Assembly: GCF_003854935.1 (NCBI RefSeq)
Contig: NZ_CP033970.1
Span: forward strand, 1,612,001-1,676,000
Origin: Cupriavidus pauculus
GTDB taxonomy: Bacteria; Pseudomonadota; Gammaproteobacteria; Burkholderiales; Burkholderiaceae
Length of the DNA stretch: 64,000 nucleotides
Reading direction: 5' to 3'
Shown: positions 2,934-18,989 of the stretch, one piece after another
Layout: every line of letters begins with the position of its first letter
Numbering within the stretch: the stretch's first letter is position 1
Notes under the pieces: model-generated
Databases searched by the model: none
Told to the model about the DNA's origin: nothing
Seen by the model: the letters and a program-made list of their open reading frames with translations, nothing else
Translations under genes and position numbers: made by a program

Positions 2934-4232
2934 TCAGACCGGAAGCTTCTTCTCGTAGTCGATGGCCGTGGATGCCAGCAGCAGCCCGACGCCAGCGGCA
3001 GCAAAGAACATCAGGGCGAGGAAGTACGAGCCCGTGAACTGCACGATCATCCCGACGATGATCGGCACGGTGATGCCGCCGATGTTGCCGCCCAGGTTCA
3101 TCACGCCGCCCAGGAAGCCGATCTTGTTCCGGGTGCCCAGGATCGACGGGATGCACCAGAACAGGCCGCACCAGCGCAGGAAGAACAGCGTGGAGGAGAG
3201 CAGGGCCACCACTGCGACCGGGTTCGTCACATACGCCACGGAGAAGATCGAGACCGTGGCGACCACGGCGGCAATGCCGAACAGCGTGCGCATCACCACG
3301 TTCGGCCGGCCGCCCGCTTCCTTCCACTTGTCGGCAATCCAGCCGCCGATCAGCTCGCCGATGAAGCCGCAGAAGAAGATGATGAAGCTGGCGCCGCCCA
3401 TGGCCTTGATATCGAAGCCATGCACCTTGTTCAGGTAGTTCGGCATCCAGGTCAGCAGCCCGTAGAACACGGTGTTGAAGCACATCCAGCCGATGGCCAT
3501 GCACCAGACCGAGCGGTACTTGAAGAAATCGAGCGACCGGCCCGACAGGTTTGCCGGCTCGGCACGGTTTTCATTGGCCTGGGCTTCCTCGATGTAGCGC
3601 GCTTCCAGCTCGTTGACGCCCGCATGCTCGCGCGGCGAGTTGCGGATGTACCACCATGCCATGGCCCCGGCGATGACGGTGCCCACGCCGGCCACCACGA
3701 AGGCCAGGCGCCACGACCCGAGTGCGGCAATCAGCCACGTAATGATGATGGCGCCCAGTGCCGCGCCCAGCGGGGCGCCGCCGTCCAGCAGCGTCGCGCC
3801 GCGGCCGCGTTCGTTCTGGGTCATCCAGATGGCATTGAGCTTGCCGCCCGCCGGGTAGATCGGCGCTTCGGCGGCGCCCAGGCCCAGGCGGGTCAGCAGC
3901 AGGGACGTGGCGTTGGTGCACACCGCGGCCAGCGCCTGGAACGCGCCCCAGAACACCGTGGCGGACGCAATCACGATGCGCGGCTTGTACTTGTCGGCCA
4001 GCATGCCCCCCGGCACCTGCATGAGGGCATAGGTCCAGAAGAACGAACTCAGGATCAGCCCCTGCATCGCGGGGCTGAGGTCGAACTCCTTGGCGATCAG
4101 TGGCATGGCCACGGACAGCGACGCGCGGTCGATGTAGTTGATGGCGATGAGGAACAGCATCATCAGGAAGATCTTCCAACGGACGCCGCTGCGTGCAGGG
4201 GTCATCGTGGCGGCCTGACTGGTGGGTGGCAT
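2934..4232 (-). CDS. MFS transporter, anion:cation symporter (ACS) type
   Basis: A 432-residue inner-membrane protein with about 12 hydrophobic segments in two halves. The start of the first helix followed by NYIDRASLSVAMP and the GGMLADKYKPR loop are typical of the ACS family, which imports organic anions, including hydantoin-, allantoate- and hexuronate-type compounds. It is the first gene of the leftward operon and most likely imports the substrate handled by the hydantoinase and its neighbours. A good GGAG ribosome-binding site lies upstream of the ATG at 4232. The exact substrate cannot be read from sequence. Confidence 0.88.
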   Translation of the reverse strand: MPPTSQAATMTPARSGVRWKIFLMMLFLIAINYIDRASLSVAMPLIAKEFDLSPAMQGLILSSFFWTYALMQVPGGMLADKYKPRIVIASATVFWGAFQALAAVCTNATSLLLTRLGLGAAEAPIYPAGGKLNAIWMTQNERGRGATLLDGGAPLGAALGAIIITWLIAALGSWRLAFVVAGVGTVIAGAMAWWYIRNSPREHAGVNELEARYIEEAQANENRAEPANLSGRSLDFFKYRSVWCMAIGWMCFNTVFYGLLTWMPNYLNKVHGFDIKAMGGASFIIFFCGFIGELIGGWIADKWKEAGGRPNVVMRTLFGIAAVVATVSIFSVAYVTNPVAVVALLSSTLFFLRWCGLFWCIPSILGTRNKIGFLGGVMNLGGNIGGITVPIIVGMIVQFTGSYFLALMFFAAAGVGLLLASTAIDYEKKLPV

Positions 4233-4305
4233 GACGGGGGTCTCCTTGCTCCTGGGTACTGTGTTGTCTGGATGTTTCGTGTCAGGGTGTCGCGCAACTG
4301 GAGCG

Positions 4306-4334
4306 AGTATAGGATACGTAATCGGTAATTACAA
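4306..4334 (-). promoter_or_regulatory. Sigma-70-like promoter of the hydantoinase operon with overlapping palindrome
   Basis: On the minus strand TTGTAA (4334-4329) and TATACT (4311-4306) are separated by exactly 17 bases, close to consensus. The perfect palindrome GTAATTAC (4325-4332) covers the -35 end, and a further GTAAT lies five bases away in the spacer, so a repressor bound here would block the promoter. The divergent GntR gene begins about 90 bases to the right and is the obvious candidate. This AT-rich patch stands out from its GC-rich surroundings. No start-site data. Confidence 0.6.
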
Positions 4335-4424
4335 CGCCGCTAAGTTATTGAAAAATATAGATATAGAGTAAGCACCAATTCGGTGTGATAGTCTTCCGTC
4401 TGGTGCAGATTCCCCGTTCTGGTG

Positions 4425-5156
4425 ATGTCCGTGACACAAGCGTTACCCAAAACCGCCCGCCTGCGCACGCTGGGCATGGCCGCCGAGATTGCGGCGCGTC
4501 TGCGCACGATGATCCAGGAGGGCGAGTTGCCTCCCGGGGCACGCATCGACGAGAAATCGCTGTGCGACGCCTTCGACGTTTCGAAGACGCCATTGCGCGA
4601 GGCGCTGAAGGTGCTGGTGGCCGAAGGGCTGGTGCTGCACCGGCAGTACATCGGCTATCGCGTGGCGCCGCTGGACCTGGACGAACTGCGGCAGACCTTC
4701 GAAACGCTGCACGGCCTGGAGGCGCATGCGGGCGAACTGGTCGCCAATCGGCTGGGCGATGCCGCGCTGGCAAGAATCGAGCGCAAGCACCAGGCCATGA
4801 TCGACGCCCATGCGGCCGGCAAGCGTACCGACTACTTCCGCATCAACCAGGAAATCCACCAGATGATCGTCGACAGCGTCGGCAACGCCGTGCTGTCGGG
4901 GATCTATGCAACGCTGATGAGCAAGGTGCACCGCGCCCGTGGTGCCGCCAATGCCGACCAGTTGCGGTGGCAGGAGTCTCACGAAGAGCACGACGCCATC
5001 ATGGCGGCGCTACGCGAGCCAGGGCGGCCGCGTCTGGCATCCATCCTCCGCGCGCATTCGGAAAACACCGCAAGGGAAGTGCTGCGCGTGGTCGAACAGA
5101 GCCTGGCCGAGCCCGGCGGCCGCGCCACCCACGTGCGCCGCGGCCGGGAATCCTGA
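4425..5156 (+). CDS. GntR-family transcriptional regulator (FadR/FCD type)
   Basis: A 243-residue regulator with an N-terminal winged helix (about residues 15-80, including FDVSKTPLREALKVL and a wing region) and a C-terminal all-helical FCD ligand domain (HGLEAHAGELVANR, NQEIHQMIVDS, with spaced His for metal or acid binding). It is divergent from the hydantoinase operon and shares its intergenic region, so it probably represses that operon until a substrate or carboxylate product binds. Translation could start at the GTG at 4422 or the adjacent ATG at 4425; the ATG is used here. Confidence 0.88.
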   Translation: MSVTQALPKTARLRTLGMAAEIAARLRTMIQEGELPPGARIDEKSLCDAFDVSKTPLREALKVLVAEGLVLHRQYIGYRVAPLDLDELRQTFETLHGLEAHAGELVANRLGDAALARIERKHQAMIDAHAAGKRTDYFRINQEIHQMIVDSVGNAVLSGIYATLMSKVHRARGAANADQLRWQESHEEHDAIMAALREPGRPRLASILRAHSENTAREVLRVVEQSLAEPGGRATHVRRGRES

Positions 5157-5228
5157 CGGTCCGGGGTCCGTCGGACGAGGGAGTCGCCATTGTCCCGTCC
5201 CATGCACAATTCATTAGCAATCAAATCA

Positions 5229-5258
5229 TTGCATTCCATAACAATTTGGATGTACGAT
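5229..5258 (+). promoter_or_regulatory. Possible sigma-70 promoter of the FAD-dehydrogenase operon
   Basis: TTGCAT (5229-5234) and TACGAT (5253-5258) lie 18 bases apart in an AT-rich patch about 100 bases before the small-subunit start. The surroundings are otherwise very GC-rich. The match is moderate and the call is an inference. Confidence 0.35.
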
Positions 5259-5355
5259 GACCGACCTTTTCCAGCGTGAGACGGGTCCGGGACGTCAATA
5301 GCGGCGCCAAACAGAGATCCGCGTGGGGACAACGCCTGATAACCACGGACCTCAC

Positions 5356-6063
5356 ATGTCTACGCCCCCGTTCTCACGTCGTGCCTTCCTGAAGGCGACC
5401 GCGGTTGCCGTGCCGGTCGCCACCATTCCGCTTCACGATCTCCGCGCCAAGGGCCTGGAGGACGTGCATCTGCAGCACTACCAGCCCGTCTTCTTCAGCG
5501 CGCCCGAGTGGCAGTTCATCCTGGCCGCCTGCGACCGCCTGATCCCGGCCGAAGGGAAGGGGCCGGGCGCGCTGGAAACCAATGTCCCCGTTTTCATCGA
5601 CCAGCAGCTCAAGGGCGGCCTGGGCGACGACATCTACCTGCAGGGCCCGCACAACGTGGCCGCGCCCAAAACGCTGGGCTTCCAGCTGCCGTACGCGCCG
5701 CAGGACGTCTACCGGCGCGGCATCGCGCTGGTGCAGCAGGCGGCCACGGCTCGCCACGGCCAGCCGTTCCACCGCCTGTCGAGCGCCGACCAGGACGCAC
5801 TGCTGACCGCGCTGCAGAAAGACACCATCGACTTCACCGCGCTGGGCGAGAGCAGCCTCAAGGCGTCGCAGTTCTTCTCGCAACTGCTTGGCGATACCAA
5901 GAACGGCTACCTGGCCGATCCGATGTACGGCGGCAACAAGGACATGAAGGCCTGGGTCGCCATTGGCTTCCCCGGCGCGCGCGCCCAGTACATCGAGTGG
6001 GTGGACCAGCACAACGTCCCCTATCCGCTGGGCCCCGTCAGCGTGAGCGGCAAGCGGGCCTGA
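5356..6063 (+). CDS. FAD-dependent gluconate/glucose dehydrogenase, small (gamma) subunit
   Basis: A 235-residue protein beginning MSTPPFSRRAFLKATAVAV, a twin-arginine (Tat) signal. It belongs to the gluconate 2-dehydrogenase subunit 3 family, which carries the signal for Tat export of the whole folded complex and assists assembly of the flavoprotein. The gene order small subunit, GMC flavoprotein, multiheme cytochrome c is the standard one for gluconate 2-dehydrogenase and for the Burkholderia FAD-glucose dehydrogenase. A GTG at 5323 is in frame but would bury the signal, so the ATG at 5356 is chosen. Confidence 0.88.
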   Translation: MSTPPFSRRAFLKATAVAVPVATIPLHDLRAKGLEDVHLQHYQPVFFSAPEWQFILAACDRLIPAEGKGPGALETNVPVFIDQQLKGGLGDDIYLQGPHNVAAPKTLGFQLPYAPQDVYRRGIALVQQAATARHGQPFHRLSSADQDALLTALQKDTIDFTALGESSLKASQFFSQLLGDTKNGYLADPMYGGNKDMKAWVAIGFPGARAQYIEWVDQHNVPYPLGPVSVSGKRA

Positions 6064-6196
6064 GGGCCTGAGCGCTTGATCCCCTGAGCGCGCCAGCCGT
6101 CCGTCCGGCCGCTCCGTCCACTGTCTTTCCCAATTTCCGCGTGAGGCGCACCCGGCCGCGCCGTGGCCCGCTTCACGCCCAGCACAAGCACGTCAT

Positions 6197-7966
6197 ATGC
6201 CCCAGATCACCAACGACGACGTCGACGTCGTCATCGTCGGCCTTGGATGGGCCGGTTCGCTGATGGCCATCGAACTGGCCCAGGCCGGCCTCAAGGTGCG
6301 CGCGCTAGAGCGCGGCCCGGACCGGCCACCCGAGGACTTTGCCTACCCAAAGCCCGCCGACCAGTACGGCTATGCCACGCGCAACAAGGTCTTTGCCACG
6401 CCGCGCGATGCCGCGCTGACCGTACGCTACAAGCAGGACGAGACCGCGCTGCCCACGCGCAAGTGGGGCGCCTTCGCGCCCGGCACCGGCGTGGGCGGGT
6501 CGGGCCTGCACTGGACTGGCGTGCTGATCCGCCCGACGCCCACCGACCTCAAGCTCAAGACCTACGCCGACCAGGCCTACCGGCGCGGCACGCTCGACGC
6601 CGACATGCGCATCAAGGACTTTCCGTTCACGTGGGACGAGATCGAGCCGTACTACGACTTCTTCGACAAGGTCTGCGGCCTGTCTGGCAACACCGGCAAC
6701 CTGCGCGGCCAGATCCAGCCCGGCGGCGACCCGTTCGAAGGCCCGCGCTCGAACCCGTATCCGCTGCCCGCGCTGGAAGACACGCTGAACTGTTCGATGT
6801 TCGCGGAGACGGCGCGCAAGCTGGGCTACCACCCGTTCCCGAACCCGTCGGCCAACGTGTCGCGGGCCTGGACCAACCCGTACGGCGCCCAGCTCGCTCC
6901 GTGCAACTACTGCGGCTACTGCAGCAAGTACCCGTGCCTGAACTACTCGAAGGCGTCGCCGCAGACCACCGTGCTGGATGTGGTCAAGCGCATGCCGAAC
7001 TTCTCGTACCGCGTGAACGCCAACGTGATCCGCGTGGACCTGCACAAGGACCGCAAGACCGCGCGCGGCGTGACCTACATCGACGAGCACGGCAAGGAGG
7101 TGTTCCAGCCGGCAAAGATCGTCGTGCTGTCGAGCTTCCAGTTCGCCAACGTGCGGCTGATGCTGCTGTCGGGCATCGGCAAGCCGTACGACCCGGTGTC
7201 CGAAACCGGCACGGTGGGGCGCAACTACGCGTTCCTGAGCAACGGCGGCGCCACGCTGTTCTTCAAGGACAAGCACTTCAACCCGTTCGCCACGGCCGGC
7301 GCCACGGGCGAGATGTTCAACGACATCTCGCCGGGCAACTTCGACGGCCCGTCGCTGGGCTTCATCGGCGGCGCCAAGATCCATAGCTCGCAGGCAACCG
7401 GCGCGCCCATCGGCACGGCGCTGCCGCCCGGCACGCCAGGCTGGGGCAAGGGCTGGAAGGAGGGCATGGTGGACTGGTACGGCCGCTCGATGAAGATCAG
7501 CATCACGACCACGTGCATGTCGTACCGCGGCCACTACCTGGACCTGGACCCGCGCTACAAGGACCCGTGGGGCCAGCCGCTGCTGCGCATGACGTTCGAC
7601 TGGCGCGAGAACGAGCTGAAGCTCCAGCGCTACCTGCGCGAGATCGTGCTGAAGATTGCAAAGGAGATGAAGCCGGACGTGATGTCGGAGAGCTTCCTGG
7701 CGCTCGATTCGCACTGGGACATCACCAAGTACGTGTCGACCCACAACGTGGGCGGCGCGATCATGGGCATGTCGCCGCGCGACTCGGCGCTGAACCGCTA
7801 CCTGCAGTCGTGGGACGTCCACAACGTCTTCGTGCCCGGCGGCAACGCGTTTCCGCAGAACTTCCAGGCCAATCCCACCGCCACGATCGGCGCCATCACG
7901 CTGATGGCCGCGGACGCCATCAAGAAGCAGTACCTCAAGAACCCGGGACCGCTGGTGCAAGCCTGA
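6197..7966 (+). CDS. FAD-dependent gluconate/glucose dehydrogenase, GMC flavoprotein subunit
   Basis: A 589-residue GMC oxidoreductase. The FAD-binding fold starts at once (VVIVGLGWAGSLMA), the substrate loop GTGVGGSGLHWTG is near residue 95, and the C-terminal catalytic part contains THNVGGAIMG and NPTATIGA. It has no signal of its own and should be exported with the Tat-bearing small subunit. A cysteine run CNYCGYCSKYPC at residues 236-247 gives CxxCxxCx4C, a likely iron-sulfur site; FAD-glucose dehydrogenase of this three-subunit type is known to hold a 3Fe-4S cluster. It oxidises a sugar or aldonate in the periplasm and passes electrons to the cytochrome. Gluconate, glucose or another polyol all remain possible substrates. 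Confidence 0.87.
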   Translation: MPQITNDDVDVVIVGLGWAGSLMAIELAQAGLKVRALERGPDRPPEDFAYPKPADQYGYATRNKVFATPRDAALTVRYKQDETALPTRKWGAFAPGTGVGGSGLHWTGVLIRPTPTDLKLKTYADQAYRRGTLDADMRIKDFPFTWDEIEPYYDFFDKVCGLSGNTGNLRGQIQPGGDPFEGPRSNPYPLPALEDTLNCSMFAETARKLGYHPFPNPSANVSRAWTNPYGAQLAPCNYCGYCSKYPCLNYSKASPQTTVLDVVKRMPNFSYRVNANVIRVDLHKDRKTARGVTYIDEHGKEVFQPAKIVVLSSFQFANVRLMLLSGIGKPYDPVSETGTVGRNYAFLSNGGATLFFKDKHFNPFATAGATGEMFNDISPGNFDGPSLGFIGGAKIHSSQATGAPIGTALPPGTPGWGKGWKEGMVDWYGRSMKISITTTCMSYRGHYLDLDPRYKDPWGQPLLRMTFDWRENELKLQRYLREIVLKIAKEMKPDVMSESFLALDSHWDITKYVSTHNVGGAIMGMSPRDSALNRYLQSWDVHNVFVPGGNAFPQNFQANPTATIGAITLMAADAIKKQYLKNPGPLVQA

Positions 7967-7977
7967 CCGAGACGACC

Positions 7978-9258
7978 ATGACCCTTTTCCGTTCCCTCTT
8001 CAATGCCGCCGCGACCGCCGCGGCCATGGCCGCCACGTTAGGCGCGGCGTCGTCGGCGCTGGCCGCCTCGGACCCGGCGCTGATCCAGCGCGGCGCCTAC
8101 CTGGCCCGCGTGGGCGACTGCATGGCCTGCCACAGCGCGCCGGGCAAGCCCGCGTACAGCGGCGGCCTGCCCATCGACAGCGGCCACGGCATCATCTACG
8201 CCACCAACATCACGCCCGACCGCCAGCATGGCATCGGCCAGTACACCGAGAAGCAGTTTGCCGACGCGGTGCGCAAGGGCGTGCGCGCCGATGGCCAGCA
8301 CCTGTACCCGGCCATGCCGTACCCGAACTACCGCAAGGTGACGGACGCGGACATCCACGCGCTCTACGCATTCTTCATGGAAGGCGTGGCGCCCAGCAGC
8401 GCGCAGCCGCCCCAGACCAGCATGGACTTTCCGTTCAACCTGCGCTGGGGCATGGCGGTGTGGAACTACGTGTTCACGTCGGACAAGCCGTTCCAGCCGC
8501 GCGCGGCCTGGACCGACCAGGTCAAGCTCGGCGCCTACCTGGTGGAAGGGCTGGGCCACTGCAGCAGCTGCCACACGCCGCGCGGCATCGCCATGAACGA
8601 GAAGGCCGATTCCAGCGCCGACGCGCAGTACCTGGCCGGCGGCGATCTGAACGGCTGGCCCGTGCCGTCGCTGCGCGGCATGCCGCACTGGACCGACCAG
8701 GACATCGTCGACTACCTGCTGACCGGCCGCAACCGCACGGCGGCCGTGGCGGGCGAGATGACGGCCGTGGTCGAGCACAGCACCTCGCATATGCGTCCGG
8801 TGGACCTGTCCGCGATTGCGGCCTACCTGAAGAGCCTGCCGCCGGTGCCGGCCGCGTCCGCCGCCGTGAAGCCGCAGGGCGCCGACGCCACGATCCGCAA
8901 GCTGACCGCGGCCAGGAACCTGACGCTGGGCGAGCGGCTGTATCTCGACAACTGCGCGGCCTGCCACTTCGTGACGGGCAAGGGCGCCGAGCGCGTGTTC
9001 CCGCGCGTGGACGGCGCCACCGTCGTCAACGCCGACAGTCCGACCGCGCTGGTCAACGTGATCCTGGCCGGCGCGCGCACGCCGTCCACGGCCAAGGCGC
9101 CGTCGATCCTGGTGATGCCGGGTTTTGCCCATCGGATGAACGATGCCGAAGTGGCCGAGCTGGCCACGTTCCTGCGGCAGGGATGGAGCAACCACGCGGC
9201 GCCCGTCACCGAGCGCAATGTGAAGGCCGTGCGCACGTCGCTGACGCCGGCGCACTGA
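7978..9258 (+). CDS. Tri-heme cytochrome c subunit of the FAD dehydrogenase
   Basis: A 426-residue exported protein with an N-terminal Sec signal ending near ALAAS (residue 30). Three heme c sites are visible: CMACH (residues 48-52), CSSCH and CAACH, spaced as in the cytochrome subunit of gluconate/alcohol dehydrogenases. It starts 11 bases after the flavoprotein stop, so the three genes are one operon. It should pass electrons from the flavoprotein to ubiquinone at the outer face of the inner membrane. Confidence 0.9.
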   Translation: MTLFRSLFNAAATAAAMAATLGAASSALAASDPALIQRGAYLARVGDCMACHSAPGKPAYSGGLPIDSGHGIIYATNITPDRQHGIGQYTEKQFADAVRKGVRADGQHLYPAMPYPNYRKVTDADIHALYAFFMEGVAPSSAQPPQTSMDFPFNLRWGMAVWNYVFTSDKPFQPRAAWTDQVKLGAYLVEGLGHCSSCHTPRGIAMNEKADSSADAQYLAGGDLNGWPVPSLRGMPHWTDQDIVDYLLTGRNRTAAVAGEMTAVVEHSTSHMRPVDLSAIAAYLKSLPPVPAASAAVKPQGADATIRKLTAARNLTLGERLYLDNCAACHFVTGKGAERVFPRVDGATVVNADSPTALVNVILAGARTPSTAKAPSILVMPGFAHRMNDAEVAELATFLRQGWSNHAAPVTERNVKAVRTSLTPAH

Positions 9259-9288: not shown

Positions 9289-9966
9289 TCAGCCGTTGCC
9301 GACCTTGCCGCCCCGGGTCCGGGCCTTGCGCTCGGGCACCAGCGGGATGGCATGCATGCCTTCCAGCCAGGACAGCGCATCGACGTACGACAGGAACTGT
9401 TCGAGATAGCCGGGCGAGACCTCGCGCATCAGCGACAGCGCGCGGTGCACCAGATGGTTGGTGTTCAGCGGCCCGGCGTTGTCGGGCACGTGCGCCTGCG
9501 ACTGGCGCAGTTGCCGCTCGACGCTGACACGCGCCCAGGTGTCGCGGAAGTAGTCGGCCAGCGCTGGCTCGGCGGCCGCGCCGCGGGGGAGGGTGTTCGA
9601 CGGGGTCGGTGACGTAGGCGCCGTGGGCGCCGTTGGCGATGCAGTGGGCGGGCAGGTGTCGACGTCCGCGCCGCGCGCCAGTCGCGCCGTCAGCGCCGCG
9701 AGGTCCGCCAGCGCGCCCGTGGGCGAGGGCGATGCCTCGCATACGGAAGCTTCGCCGGCCGCGTCCCGCTCGATCGCCTCTCCGTAAGCCGCCACCAGCG
9801 CCGCCAGCCGCGCGTCGAGCCACCGCCGTGCTTCGCCGTCGAAGCCAGCCGCGCGTCGCGCCATCGCGTCGATCAGGCAGAAGCGCACCGGGTCCGCGCG
9901 GTCGGCGCCGGACAGCCGCCAGGCATCCAGCCGGGCGCGCGGATCGGGCTGGGCGTCCTCATGCAT
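9289..9966 (-). CDS. DUF2894-like protein, last gene of the ZorAB-like motor operon
   Basis: A 225-residue soluble protein of unknown function; I recognise it as DUF2894 mainly from its place in this conserved betaproteobacterial gene set. It has an Ala-rich N-terminal half with RRWLDARLAALVAAYG, a Pro/Thr/Ser-rich linker around residues 120-140 (TASPTAPTAPTSPTPS), and a conserved-looking C-terminal half (YFRDTWARVSVERQLRQS, LVHRALSLM, FLSYVDALSWLEGM). The ATG at 9966 overlaps the end of the OmpA-like gene by eight bases, indicating translational coupling. No signal peptide or membrane segment is seen, so it is probably cytoplasmic and may act with the tail of the channel protein. Confidence 0.72.
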   Translation of the reverse strand: MHEDAQPDPRARLDAWRLSGADRADPVRFCLIDAMARRAAGFDGEARRWLDARLAALVAAYGEAIERDAAGEASVCEASPSPTGALADLAALTARLARGADVDTCPPTASPTAPTAPTSPTPSNTLPRGAAAEPALADYFRDTWARVSVERQLRQSQAHVPDNAGPLNTNHLVHRALSLMREVSPGYLEQFLSYVDALSWLEGMHAIPLVPERKARTRGGKVGNG

Positions 9967-10606
9967 GCGGCTTCTGGCCCCCGGCCGACACGCGCGGCAC
10001 CGGCGCGATTTCCACGCGCCGATTCTTGGCGCGGCTTTCTTCGGTGGCATTGGGCGCCACCGGCTGCTGCGCCCCAAACGCGGCGGAGAAGATCGACACC
10101 GGCGGCACGCCCGCATCGATCAGCGCGCGCGTCACGGTCAGCGCGCGCTGCGCCGACAGCTCCAGGTTGTCGGCAAAGCGGCGGTTGCCTTCGCGCACCT
10201 GCCGGTCGTCGGTAAAGCCGCTGACCATCAGAATTTCATCGCGCGCACCCAGGTAAGCCGACAGCGGCGCCGCCAGGCTTTTGAGCAGCGCCTGGCCCTC
10301 TGGCTGCAACTGGTCGGAGTTCACCGCGAACAGCACGTTGCCGCTGATGCCGATCCGGCCGTCCTTGAGCGTGACGCGGCCCGCCGCCAGCGGCCCGGCC
10401 AGCGCCTGCTCCAGCGTCTGGCGCCGCTGCAGTTCTTCCTGCCGCTGCTTCACTTCCTTTTCCAGCCGTGCCGACAGCTCCATCTGCACGCCAATCACGC
10501 CCAGCAGCACCAGCACGAAGGCGCCGAGCATGACCGACATCAGGTCGCCAAACACCGCCCAGGCCGGGACGGTGGTCTCCACGCCGGCGTCGTGATCGTC
10601 CGTCAT
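9959..10606 (-). CDS. MotB/ZorB-like OmpA-family protein
   Basis: A 215-residue inner-membrane protein with a short cytoplasmic start, one membrane helix (about residues 17-40) and a periplasmic OmpA domain (about 90-205; VSGFTDDRQV, NLELSAQRALTVTRALIDAG, RAKNRRVEI). An Asp at residue 21 (FGDLMSVML) starts the helix, in the place of the essential proton-carrying Asp of MotB and ZorB. The plug-like stretch EKEVKQRQEELQRRQ follows. Together with the upstream MotA/ExbB-like gene, with which it overlaps by four bases (ATGA), it forms a stator-type pair anchored to peptidoglycan. Confidence 0.85.
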   Translation of the reverse strand: MTDDHDAGVETTVPAWAVFGDLMSVMLGAFVLVLLGVIGVQMELSARLEKEVKQRQEELQRRQTLEQALAGPLAAGRVTLKDGRIGISGNVLFAVNSDQLQPEGQALLKSLAAPLSAYLGARDEILMVSGFTDDRQVREGNRRFADNLELSAQRALTVTRALIDAGVPPVSIFSAAFGAQQPVAPNATEESRAKNRRVEIAPVPRVSAGGQKPHA

Positions 10607-12996
10607 GCGGCTTCGGCGCCAGCCTGCCGGGCGGCGAACTGCTGCAGGTTTTCCAGGATCTGCTTCTGCGACAGCATGCTCAGGTCCACCACCTCGCGCG
10701 CCTGGGCCACGTAGTAGGCCAGTTGCTCGTCGCTGCGCGCCATCGACTTGTCGAGCGCGGCCTCGATGCGCGCCAGGTGCTCGGCCAGCTTGTCGTTCGA
10801 CGCGCTGAACATCTGCACCGCCATGCCGAAGGCTTCGCCCAGGCTTGCCACTTCCACCGCGCTGCCCGTGATGCGGGCGGCGATGCCGTCGAGCTTGCCG
10901 GTTTCCTGCGCCACCTGCTCGGTGAAGCGCGTGCCCACCCGGTCCAGCAGGTCGGCCGTGGTGGTGACCAGCCCGTCCACCGCCGCGCGCTGCTCGGTCG
11001 ACGCGTGGTTCACGGCGTCCAGCAGCGTGCCGAGCGTTTCCAGCAGCCGGCCGCGTTCTTCCAGCATCGCGTTGTCGCGCGCCATGCCGTCGGTCAGTTT
11101 CTGGCGCAGCTCGGCGATGACCTCGGCGGCCGCCTTGGGCGCTTCGGTGGCGATCTGCGCCAGGCGGGCGACCTCGGCAATCGTGTCGCTGGCCTGCTGC
11201 TGCGTGTGCGTGGCGATTTCGCGCGCGGTGTCGGCCAGCGCGTCATGGAGTGCGCGCTGCTGCCCGGCCGACGCCGTGCTCGCGGCCTGCCATTCGTCGC
11301 GCATCGTGGCGGCCATGGTGGCCAGCGTGTCCTGCCAGGCCGTCAGGCGCTGGGCGTCGCGCGCGGCCAGATCGGCCTGCAGCGACGCGGCAGCCTGCAG
11401 CAGGTGGTCGATCTCGGCCAGCGTGCCCGTGGCATGGGCCTGCGCGTGCGTGGCGATGTCGCGGGCGCTTTGCGACAGCGCGTCGCGCACGGCCCGCTGG
11501 TCGGCGGCCGATTGGGCGCTGGCGGCCTGCCATTGCTCGCGCATCGTGCTCGCCATGGCGGCCAGCGCCTCTTGCCACGCCGCAAGACGGGCCGCGTCGC
11601 GGCTGTCCAGCGTCGACTGGCGAGCCGTCTCCTGCGCGGCCAGTTGCGCGTGGAGGTCGGCATGGGACTGGCGAACCGTGCCGGCGAAGTCGGTGGCCTG
11701 CGCGGCAAAGGCGGCGGCGTGCTGCGAGAACGCCGACGATGCGTCGGTCATGGCCGCGCGGTTGGCGCTGGCCAGCGAGGTGCCGGTATCGGCCAGGCGT
11801 GACAGCGCCGCATCCCAGGTGCGCGCCGCGTCGGCCGTGGCCGTGTCCAGGCGGGCGCCGATGCCATCGACCAGCGCCGCCGAGCGCTGCGCGAAGGTCT
11901 CGCCGAAGCCGTCCAGCGTCGCGCGCAGGTCGGCCGCGAGCGCGCCATTGGCCTGCCGATGGTCGGCCAGGGACGCGCGCCAGGTATCGACCACGGCGGC
12001 CGTGGTGGATTCGAAGCGGGCGGCGGTGCCGTCCAGATGCTGCTGCACGGTCAGCGTGATCGCGTCGCGCAGCGCGGATGCCTCGCGGGCGAGGCCGGCC
12101 ATGGTCGTATCGACGGCGGGCTGGATCGCGGCGCTGGCTGCCCGGGCGCTGTCGGCAATGCCGTCCTTGAGCGACGCGCCGACGGTCTCGGCCAGCCGCG
12201 CGTAGGCGGCGTCGGTGCGGGCGTGGAACGCGTCCTGGCCGTCCGCCAGCCGCTGGCCCAGCGCCTCGTGCTGGCTGGCCAGCGTGGTCGCCATCGTGTC
12301 GAGCCGGTCGACCAGGGCCGGCATCAGCTTGGCCTGCCGTTGCAGCAGCGCAAACACCGCGTCGTGCTGGTGATGGCGCGAGAACCCGCGCAGCGTGGTG
12401 ACAAGCTGTTCGTCGAGCAGTTGCGCCGCCTGCACACGCTCGCGGCGCGCCATCGTCGACAGCAGCCCGAGCATGGCCGACGTGGCCACGCCCGCCACCG
12501 ACGTGCCGAACGCAAAGCCCAGCCCCTTGACCGGCGCCGCCAGCGACGCGCGGATGGCCTGCAGGTCGGCGGCGCCTTCGAGCGCCACGCCGGTGCTGCG
12601 CAGCGTACCGACCATGCCGAGGAACGTGCCGAGCATGCCCAGCAGCACCAGCAGCCCGACGAGGTAAGGCGTCATGGCCGGGCCGGGCAGCGCCACGCGC
12701 TCGCCTTCCACGCGCAGGCGCACCGCGTTGCGCAGGCTCGGGTGCAGGCGATCCAGCCATGCCCCGAGGCTGGCCGGCGGCGTCGAGAGCGCGGCGATGG
12801 CGGCGGTCAGCGTCGGCGTGGCCTGCCGGTAGCGATGCAGTTCCAGCGCGCCGCCGACATAGAAGCCGCCGATCAGCAGCGTGACGGCTAGCGCCAGCGC
12901 ATTCGTGCCCGCGTAGCCGGCGCCAACCCAGCCGACAACGGCAAGGCCGGCCAGGAAGACGACGGGGGCGGCGAGGGAGGTGAGGTGTCTGTTCAT
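10603..12996 (-). CDS. DUF802 protein: MotA/ExbB/ZorA-like channel with a very long helical tail
   Basis: A 797-residue protein. Hydrophobic segments lie at about residues 8-27, 32-52, 109-132 and 157-182. The third contains LLGMLGTFLGMVGTL, the ExbB/TolQ/MotA/ZorA-type pore helix motif; the fourth reads GLGFAFGTSVAGVATSAML, also typical. The remaining 600 or so residues are an Ala/Gln/Asp/Arg-rich helical tail with repeating segments such as LAAMASTMREQWQAAS and LATMAATMRDEWQAAS, likely a long coiled coil in the cytoplasm. The architecture (channel domain, long tail, OmpA partner next door) is that of ZorA. It starts nine bases after DUF3348 and overlaps the OmpA gene by four. Confidence 0.82.
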   Translation of the reverse strand: MNRHLTSLAAPVVFLAGLAVVGWVGAGYAGTNALALAVTLLIGGFYVGGALELHRYRQATPTLTAAIAALSTPPASLGAWLDRLHPSLRNAVRLRVEGERVALPGPAMTPYLVGLLVLLGMLGTFLGMVGTLRSTGVALEGAADLQAIRASLAAPVKGLGFAFGTSVAGVATSAMLGLLSTMARRERVQAAQLLDEQLVTTLRGFSRHHQHDAVFALLQRQAKLMPALVDRLDTMATTLASQHEALGQRLADGQDAFHARTDAAYARLAETVGASLKDGIADSARAASAAIQPAVDTTMAGLAREASALRDAITLTVQQHLDGTAARFESTTAAVVDTWRASLADHRQANGALAADLRATLDGFGETFAQRSAALVDGIGARLDTATADAARTWDAALSRLADTGTSLASANRAAMTDASSAFSQHAAAFAAQATDFAGTVRQSHADLHAQLAAQETARQSTLDSRDAARLAAWQEALAAMASTMREQWQAASAQSAADQRAVRDALSQSARDIATHAQAHATGTLAEIDHLLQAAASLQADLAARDAQRLTAWQDTLATMAATMRDEWQAASTASAGQQRALHDALADTAREIATHTQQQASDTIAEVARLAQIATEAPKAAAEVIAELRQKLTDGMARDNAMLEERGRLLETLGTLLDAVNHASTEQRAAVDGLVTTTADLLDRVGTRFTEQVAQETGKLDGIAARITGSAVEVASLGEAFGMAVQMFSASNDKLAEHLARIEAALDKSMARSDEQLAYYVAQAREVVDLSMLSQKQILENLQQFAARQAGAEAA

Positions 12997-13005
12997 GTCG
13001 GTCGG

Positions 13006-13689
13006 TCAGGTATCGCGCAGGGCCGCGAGCAGCGCTTCCACCGGCTGGAAGCGAATTTCCAGCTCGGCCAGCAGCACGCTCTGCATGTCCGTGCGAAATA
13101 CGTTGAGCCACGCGCCCTCCGCGGCGCGCAGCCTTGTGAAATGCGGTTCCAGCAGCCCCGGCACGGCGGCAAGCACGGCCTGCTCGCGCGCGCCCAGCAC
13201 CTGTTCCATGACGGTGTCGAGCATCGCCAGCCGGCCCGCCTGCGGCGTGCGCGCGGCCAGCGACGTGCGCAGCCGCGCCCGCAGGCCGCCGATCTCGCGC
13301 TCCATCTGCTGCTGCAGCGCCACGTAGCGCTGGCGATGGTCGGCAAAGTCGGATTCGGCCGCGTCAGGCGCCGCCAGGCGCGCCGGCACCCTGCGGCGGC
13401 TGTCCGACGCGGCGCCTTGCCCCGTGATGGCGGCGGTCAGCGTCGCGCGTACGTGCCGGCCGGCCGCCTCGCCCGCCAGGCCGCGCGCGGCGGGCGCTCC
13501 GGACGCCACTTCGGGCGGGCTGCCGTTCAGCGCGGCGGACAGCGCGATGGCATCGGTCCAGCCCAGCCAGCGGCTGATCTCCGCCGACAGCGACGGCGCG
13601 GCGCCGGGGGCCCCGGCGTCGGTCAGGCGCGCCAGCAGGCGCACCAGTTTCGGGCCGCTGAGGCCCGTGCGCTGTGGCACTTGCGTCAT
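13006..13689 (-). CDS. DUF3348 protein, first gene of the ZorAB-like motor operon
   Basis: A 227-residue soluble protein. The N-terminus MTQVPQRTGLSGPKLVRLL is typical of the betaproteobacterial DUF3348 family. The rest is mostly helical, including RQRYVALQQQMEREIGGLRARLR and a C-terminal FRTDMQSVLLAELEIRFQPV. No signal or membrane segment. It is followed nine bases later by the channel gene, so it is the promoter-proximal member of the four-gene operon. The ATG at 13689 is chosen because upstream codons read into the intergenic region shared with the metQ-like gene. Function unknown; a cytoplasmic partner of the motor tail is a guess. Confidence 0.78.
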   Translation of the reverse strand: MTQVPQRTGLSGPKLVRLLARLTDAGAPGAAPSLSAEISRWLGWTDAIALSAALNGSPPEVASGAPAARGLAGEAAGRHVRATLTAAITGQGAASDSRRRVPARLAAPDAAESDFADHRQRYVALQQQMEREIGGLRARLRTSLAARTPQAGRLAMLDTVMEQVLGAREQAVLAAVPGLLEPHFTRLRAAEGAWLNVFRTDMQSVLLAELEIRFQPVEALLAALRDT

Positions 13690-16926: not shown

Positions 16927-17775
16927 TCAAAGCCGCTCAACATGGTGCCGCACATGGTCGGCGATGAACGTGCTGATGAAGTAGTACCCGTGGTCGTAGC
17001 CCGCGTGGCGGCGCAGGGTCAGGGGTTGGCCCACGCTGGCGCAGGCGGCCTCGAAGGCTTCGGGGTAGAGCTGCTCGGCCAGGAATTTGTCGGCCAGGCC
17101 CTGGTCGATGAGGATGCCGGACGGGAACGGGGCCGAGGGCTGGGCGGCCATCAGTGCGGTGGCGTCGTGCTGGGCCCAGCGGGTGCGGTCATCGCCCAGG
17201 TAGCCGGTGAATGCCTTGACGCCCCACGGGCATTGCGACGGCGCCGCGATTGGCGCGAAGGCCGAGACCGAGCGGAAGCGTTGCGGGTAGCGCTGCGCCA
17301 GCGTCAGCGCCCCGTGGCCGCCCATTGAATGGCCGAAGATGCCCACGCGGGCAGGGTCGGCCGGCAGGTCGCTGGTGACCAGGTGGAACAGCTCGTCGGC
17401 CACGTAGCTTTCCATGCGCCAGTGCATGCGCCACGGTGCTTCCACCGCATCGACGTAGAAGCCGGCCCCGACGCCGAAGTCCCATGCGTCGGCCTCGCCC
17501 GGCACGTGGGCGCCGCGCGGGCTGGTATCCGGTGCCACCAGGATCAGGCCGTGCTCGGCGGCGTGGCGCTGGGCGCCGGCCTTGATCGCGAACGTTTCCT
17601 CGGTGCAGGTCAGCCCGGCCAGGTAGAACAGCGCCGGCAGGCGGCCGGCATCGGCGGCCAGCGCCTGCGGCGGCAGGTAGACCGAGAACCGCATCGGCAG
17701 GCCGATGGCCGCCGACTGGTGCTGGTAGAAGCGCTGCACGCCTCCGTGGCAGCCGTGTTCGCTCAGCAGTTCCAT
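16927..17775 (-). CDS. fghA: S-formylglutathione hydrolase
   Basis: A 282-residue esterase-D-type hydrolase that cleaves S-formylglutathione to formate and glutathione, the second step of glutathione-dependent formaldehyde oxidation. Triad residues are Ser150 (GHSMGG), Asp224 (LIDQGLADKF) and His262 (YDHGYYF); the LAGLTCTEETF segment with its Cys near the active site is conserved. It starts ten bases after frmA, the gene for the preceding step. Confidence 0.95.
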   Translation of the reverse strand: MELLSEHGCHGGVQRFYQHQSAAIGLPMRFSVYLPPQALAADAGRLPALFYLAGLTCTEETFAIKAGAQRHAAEHGLILVAPDTSPRGAHVPGEADAWDFGVGAGFYVDAVEAPWRMHWRMESYVADELFHLVTSDLPADPARVGIFGHSMGGHGALTLAQRYPQRFRSVSAFAPIAAPSQCPWGVKAFTGYLGDDRTRWAQHDATALMAAQPSAPFPSGILIDQGLADKFLAEQLYPEAFEAACASVGQPLTLRRHAGYDHGYYFISTFIADHVRHHVERL

Positions 17776-17785
17776 GGGCCCGTCC

Positions 17786-18892
<1,107 letters not shown>

Positions 18893-18989
18893 GGGGCAAC
18901 TCCTGTGCAGATGGATGGGGCGGCCAGCGGCGCGCCGACAGGCCAAGACTATACGGCCATCGGCACGCTGCGGCCAGACAGGTGAGCGA

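Follow-up and report, generated by a model that had tools for sequence, protein, structure and literature searches.

The operon studied here pairs a long-tailed MotA-like protein with a MotB-like protein and two soluble partners, and it raises the question of whether such a motor serves phage defence or the cell envelope. It lies in a 64,000-nucleotide stretch of Cupriavidus pauculus DNA, which we call the window. We consider it probable that the operon encodes a wall-anchored, ion-driven motor with a modular shaft that signals to a conserved tip and helical partners and is used against phage. Its features are as follows.

13006..13689, minus strand: DUF3348 protein, first gene, 227 aa (Pfam PF11828, 7.6e-81; PADLOC PDLC00658, 6.5e-81)
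10603..12996, minus strand: ZorA3 (DUF802 protein, 797 aa), MotA/ExbB/TolQ-like motor subunit with a long cytoplasmic tail (PADLOC PDLC00650)
11091..11590, minus strand, borders approximate: two recognisable 80-residue modules of the ZorA3 tail, from about residue 470 (landmarks 470/550 and 488/568)
10606..11145, minus strand: conserved tip of the ZorA3 tail, its last 180 residues (mean pairwise identity 0.70)
9959..10606, minus strand: ZorB3 (215 aa), MotB-like, with Asp21 in the N-terminal helix and an OmpA peptidoglycan-binding domain (PADLOC PDLC00651, 5.4e-113; PF00691, 5.6e-19)
9289..9966, minus strand: DUF2894 protein, last gene, 225 aa (PF11445, 7.4e-60; PADLOC PDLC00652, 4.2e-73)

The four genes are tightly packed on the minus strand, with a 9-base gap between DUF3348 and ZorA, a 4-base overlap of ZorA and ZorB, and an 8-base overlap of ZorB and DUF2894. 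The first-pass annotation had placed this overlapping or near-touching operon, flanked by the soluble DUF3348 and DUF2894 proteins, at 13689–9289, and these coordinates hold. For DUF2894, the mechanical list of open reading frames uses an upstream ATG at 10116; we take the gene as 9966–9289. The order DUF3348-ZorA-ZorB-DUF2894 on one strand recurs without exception in 40 loci taken from other genomes. Of 80 named loci, 76 show it; the remaining four are incomplete as extracted, three of these lying on short contigs or at the end of a contig. The arrangement is thus more than chance. At two loci, L126 (genome G513) and L131 (G617), the N-terminal part of ZorA is missing from the expected frame beside DUF3348, to which the spacing is a 451-base gap and a 131-base overlap, respectively; frameshift, divergence, or assembly error could each account for this.

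To which class does the operon belong? Judged by sequence, it is almost certainly a member of Zorya type III. All four proteins match the type III models of the PADLOC library of defence proteins, and the ZorA3 model PDLC00650 recognizes the window ZorA with 1159.8 bits (E=0). Together with the ZorB3 match, this bears out the earlier proposal of a ZorAB-type motor, for which a search with ZorA and ZorB profiles had been suggested. PF05650 (DUF802) matches ZorA3 in two stretches (2.1e-21), and ZorB also passes the cut-off of NCBIfam PRK09040, an unnamed equivalog family. According to the available excerpt of Payne et al (2021; PMC8565338), the name “Zorya type III” stands for ZorAB with DUF3348 and DUF2894 on either side, 6,401 such systems were counted, and the type III operon of Stenotrophomonas nitritireducens lowers phage plating in E. 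coli. The suggestion of an undescribed defence system is thereby ruled out, since all four genes belong to a published type for which phage protection has been shown with another bacterium's copy. The names of the accessory proteins are reversed between sources: DUF3348 is ZorF and DUF2894 is ZorG in the excerpted text of the 2021 paper (PMC8565338), and ZorG3 and ZorF3, respectively, in PADLOC-DB 2.0.0 (models PDLC00652–00658).

With published type III, the operon shares the four families and the gene order seen in every complete locus compared. Nothing in it speaks for exclusion; the modular tail and near-core distribution described below characterise type III across this group of bacteria, not the window copy alone. 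With types I (ZorABCD) and II (ZorABE), it shares the ZorA/ZorB core, as reflected in weak matches to the ZorA1 and ZorA2 models and clear ones to ZorB1 models. In contrast to these types, the four operon genes match neither ZorC (EH_signature) nor ZorD, which argues against type I, and show no ZorE/HNH match, which argues against type II (Pfam and PADLOC searches). The ZorC family is also without a match in the window's own genome. As the annotation had proposed, no nuclease is recognised within the operon by Pfam, PADLOC, or NCBIfam searches.

The motor core carries the expected residues. The pore motif quoted for the DUF802 protein is present, Asp21 of ZorB is an aspartate in 128 of 128 distinct relatives, and the OmpA motif is conserved. 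The pore motif, the ion-carrying aspartate, and the OmpA peptidoglycan domain are shared with the flagellar MotAB stator, which differs from the Zorya operon in that the latter has a long tail and partner genes. Among the 25 of 40 matches listed, the NCBIfam cut-offs for flagellar MotB and MotD are unreached (e.g., 82.9 bits for the MotD model versus 283). In profile searches of solved structures, the ZorA motor region matches the 696-residue chain 8vvn (E 3.6e-6), which by its length and name is very probably the type I ZorA of Shewanella. For ZorB, MotB domains are the best solved match, the MotB periplasmic domain 3khn (6.9e-18) ranking above 8qyd (4.8e-5), and this order counts against a defensive Zorya motor.

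What distinguishes the ZorA protein is its tail, which comprises 597 residues after residue 200 and thus agrees with the estimate of about 600. The internal repeats that had been noted in it are confirmed by a self-match score of 248, compared with a maximum of 65 over 50 shuffles of the same tail. The best offset is 80 residues, with 65% identity across 40 residues and an identity of 0.55 across 80 residues at this offset. Tandem Repeats Finder reports no repeat here at the DNA level, so the copies have diverged: In the window ZorA, two 80-residue modules can still be recognised. By arithmetic, the tail would measure about 90 nm if drawn out as a straight helix, and one module 12 nm.

Across relatives, the tail varies widely. 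ZorA was obtained from 135 of 141 sources, yielding 128 distinct proteins, of which 127 have at least 600 residues and 126 entered the final module test; L272 was left out of the latter because 54 consecutive residues of its ZorA are unknown. Among the proteins that reach 600 residues, length spans 601–1,229 residues, whereas component size is well conserved within types I and II, as stated in the available part of PMC11890865; as a length control, the ZorA1 model run over 396 genomes returns a heterogeneous family whose open frames measure 653–1,695 aa. In self-comparisons of the 127 proteins, the most frequent best offsets are 87 residues (36 proteins), 55 (32, mostly weak), 131 (11), 80 (9), and 62 (7). 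Tryptophan landmarks reveal steps of exactly 87 residues in ZorA3 of 698, 785, 872, 959, and 1,220 residues, and in the window's clade the lengths rise in 80-residue steps (711, 791, 871, and 1,031).

These module lengths lie close to whole helix turns. The hydrophobic residues of ZorA3 tails recur with a periodicity peak of 3.63 residues (3.66 for the repeat part, 3.58 for the final 270 residues, and 3.61 for the window tail). With the helix period fixed at this 3.63 from the hydrophobicity scan, 85 of the 126 proteins yield modules of 19 distinct lengths, and these give a mean cosine of 0.82, a value reached by none of 20,000 random sets. Because the helix is amphipathic, detection by self-identity may on its own be biased towards whole turns, hence the importance of stricter identity thresholds: At 70% identity, 66 of 126 proteins give a cosine of 0.90, and at 80%, 53 of 126 give 0.92, again with 0 of 20,000 random sets in each case. 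When the period is instead fitted to 29 unit lengths with L272 included, the resultant is 0.55 at 3.634 and is reached by 2 of 5,000 random sets; short offsets in this version stem mostly from L272. All of these lengths come from related proteins with start codons picked by rule, and repeats may be miscounted in short-read assemblies. Both ends of ZorA are constant by comparison. Among 121 distinct operons of 135, the mean pairwise identity of the last 180 residues is as high as that of the motor (0.70 versus 0.68 for the first 300 residues), with values of 0.74 for ZorB, 0.53 for DUF3348, and 0.45 for DUF2894. Thus, the length of the ZorA shaft seems to evolve by modules of whole helix turns, with motor and tip conserved.

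The modules may quite plausibly, if just short of probably, be functionless in themselves, being chance duplications that are tolerated when the coiled coil stays in phase. A continuous coiled coil requires in-phase insertions in any case, module lengths are lineage-specific (87, 80, 131, 62, 149, and others), and the same-species records compared (three, two, and two records) have equal lengths. Such a neutral origin sits less easily with a roughly twofold variation in length between two conserved ends, and with the fact that several of the ZorA3 of 711, 791, and 871 residues come from relatives with common flanking genes and differ by exactly 80 residues. Both observations are compatible with a selected setting and with neutral drift alike and do not decide between them.

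The two partner proteins are predicted to be helical. AlphaFold2 models DUF3348 as all-helical (pLDDT 81, pTM 0.76) and DUF2894 as helical segments joined by a poorly predicted, disordered linker (pLDDT 75, pTM 0.41), and fold comparison of both models returns generic helical bundles. Family and profile searches recognise no effector domain in either protein, which counts against defence by this motor, and no catalytic site is obvious. At 95% conservation, DUF2894 is left without any acidic or histidine residue and DUF3348 with D158, E169, and E209 and no histidine. The helical models and the lack of a catalytic-type conserved set argue for, and do not prove, adaptors rather than metal-dependent nucleases.

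In the mechanism that we favour, five ZorA and two ZorB subunits would assemble in the inner membrane into a rotary motor powered by ion flow, with the OmpA domain of ZorB gripping the peptidoglycan and Asp21 carrying the ion. An entering phage would disturb the wall and so unlock the motor, which may then turn the ZorA tail; the latter would act as a shaft of bundled helices, made up in part of tandem modules. The conserved tip would recruit or activate the helical DUF3348 and DUF2894 proteins, presumably docked there, and these would then block infection. Several steps are drawn by analogy: Phage protection is known from the S. nitritireducens operon, and the available text of PMC11890865 describes, for types I and II, a 5:2 ZorAB assembly, a need for ion flow, peptidoglycan binding, and the tail, and a wall-sensing model. 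That the window copy defends its own host is likewise something we infer. For this mechanism speak the type III model matches, the invariant Asp21, the OmpA motif, the 8vvn match, a tip as conserved as the motor, and the whole-turn modules.

The last two observations also bear on a rival, rather unlikely scheme, in which DUF3348 and DUF2894 would only gate ZorAB, and ZorAB would kill or stop the infected cell by passing ions, rotation and tail docking being unneeded. A proposal that the two proteins regulate ZorAB is contained in the excerpt of PMC8565338, and the missing catalytic-type residues in both partners fit it. Such gating would, however, leave the long tail, its conserved tip, and the whole-turn modules without a role.

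The distribution of the operon also bears on this defensive motor. In the genus, DUF3348 is found in 52 of 61 genomes and in 48 of the 55 of good quality, with one copy per carrier except for one gene in two pieces, and a ZorA3 search returns the 52 carriers plus one marginal match in an incomplete genome. The named loci nearest to the window operon are from Cupriavidus; C. metallidurans CH34 carries a type III operon, and PMC12645576 reports a predicted Zorya system, its type unspecified, in C. necator H16. The good-quality genomes without it number seven, three of which form one clade, so the operon is not essential. In the family, it occurs in 138 of 201 genomes and 11 of 24 genera; 14 of 17 listed non-carriers outside the genus (43 further non-carriers exist) have genomes of at most 2.6 Mb. 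Beyond the family, its occurrence is patchy, with 23 of 299 genomes in the order (22 above cut-off), 25 of 396 in the phylum (24 above cut-off), and 53 of 150 in another family of the class. Type III thus looks like a long-term resident of the genus, and this near-core distribution, unlike that of a typical acquired defence system, counts against the defensive motor.

The type I marker ZorC is present in 5 of 61 genus genomes (5 of the 55 of good quality). Four of these (G007, G015, G036, and G055) also carry type III and one (G035) does not, so types I and III are not mutually exclusive. No ZorA3 relatives were found in viral contigs by a pattern-based scan or among 50,697 phage records by tblastn with the ZorA3 motor region; ZorC is likewise without a phage match, so the phage search does not set the two types apart. 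Among 72,556 plasmid records, DUF3348 is carried by 27, on replicons of 366 kb–3.5 Mb, of which seven are typed mobilizable and none conjugative. ZorC occurs on 24 plasmid records of 41–907 kb, six mobilizable and three conjugative.

We read the descent of the operon as mainly vertical with some transfer. In 29 genomes, tree distances of the operon correlate with those of rpoB (Pearson 0.77) about as do those of gyrB (0.78), and the operon shares 13 of 26 splits with rpoB, compared with 16 of 26 for gyrB. Transfer is indicated by the strong splits, since 8 of 18 in the operon conflict with a strong rpoB split versus 3 of 20 in gyrB; against gyrB, the operon gives a Pearson value of 0.65, again with 8 of 18 strong splits in conflict. 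This gyrB control covers 29 of 30 genomes, G025 having been dropped because its gyrB is split in two between contig ends and the locus retrieved was the lower-scoring second match. In a larger tree of 49 of the 52 carriers, from which G043 (gene in two pieces) as well as G005 and G052 (partial rpoB) were dropped, the correlation of the operon with rpoB is 0.80, reached by 0 of 2,000 permutations; 13 of 46 splits are shared, and 13 of 24 strong operon splits clash with a strong rpoB split. In the window's genome, the operon lies on contig 3 (1.9 Mb) and rpoB and gyrB on contig 2; the relatives G047 and G008 have rpoB and the operon on one contig.

The surroundings of the operon are common to some close clades, and on its upstream side the window shares about 1.4 kb with genome G037. 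When the ten genes flanking the window operon are sought around the operon in 40 other loci, three isolated matches are all that appears. This pattern, with flanks common mainly to close relatives and isolated matches elsewhere, led us to reject both a single fixed locus and random insertion. Among the ten flanking genes, no defence gene is found apart from one weak match, a GntR-like regulator, and this absence of defence neighbours counts against the defensive motor.

Near-core residence keeps alive a role in the envelope, the second alternative offered in the annotation and a possibility that we hold as doubtful. In Burkholderiaceae, the motor would then mainly sense or respond to wall or envelope damage, and the protection conferred by a cloned operon would follow incidentally from wall sensing or from overexpression. 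Single-copy carriage in most good genomes of the genus, presence in much of the family, an operon tree mostly congruent with rpoB, plasmid matches confined to large replicons of which none is typed conjugative, and ten flanking genes with a single weak defence match all point this way. So does a knockdown study in Burkholderia cenocepacia K56-2, in whose available text (PMC12584637) Zorya III is one of the predicted systems and silencing of predicted defence genes has no detected effect on one phage; the authors offer several possible reasons for the null result, which equally counts against the defensive motor. Yet the same source reports transcriptional changes upon infection in the leading one or two genes of both Zorya I and Zorya III, and a type III operon does protect E. 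coli from phage (PMC8565338, in excerpt). Loss from seven good genomes, patchiness outside the family, and the excess of strong splits in conflict with rpoB over the gyrB control further weigh against a resident envelope function.

Taken furthest, the observations would allow a combined picture that we offer tentatively and think improbable as a whole. In it, Zorya type III would be a wall-anchored rotary machine that is resident in Burkholderiaceae and passed on largely by vertical descent, as opposed to a mobile immune cassette. Its ZorA tail would be a modular torque shaft, its length evolving in whole-turn modules of about 12–13 nm with helical phase, motor, and tip fixed, and phage defence would be one output of a standing envelope sensor.

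The system itself is already known, so the find as such is ordinary; the resident pattern and the modular shaft are the unusual part and give it value. The open-licence PMC literature searched holds no account of a core-operon status or a modular tail of type III; most subscription papers fall outside this scope, so novelty is unproven. Should type III be a near-core resident, surveys of Burkholderiaceae that treat it as acquired defence would mislead, and its native role needs a test in the host. Moreover, the ZorA tails found in nature, differing as they do by whole modules, provide a ready set for distinguishing a rigid, in-phase rotating shaft from a merely long tether, a question that remains from the type I and II structures.

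Two further gene sets in the window were assigned by eye. At 2934–9258, a putative MFS transporter and a GntR-like regulator adjoin three genes (small subunit, GMC flavoprotein, and cytochrome c) that we take to resemble a membrane-bound sugar-acid dehydrogenase; this set is convergent with the DUF2894 gene and ends 31 bases from it. At 16927–18895 on the minus strand, a putative S-formylglutathione hydrolase gene adjoins one for a class III alcohol dehydrogenase, presumably a formaldehyde-detoxification pair.
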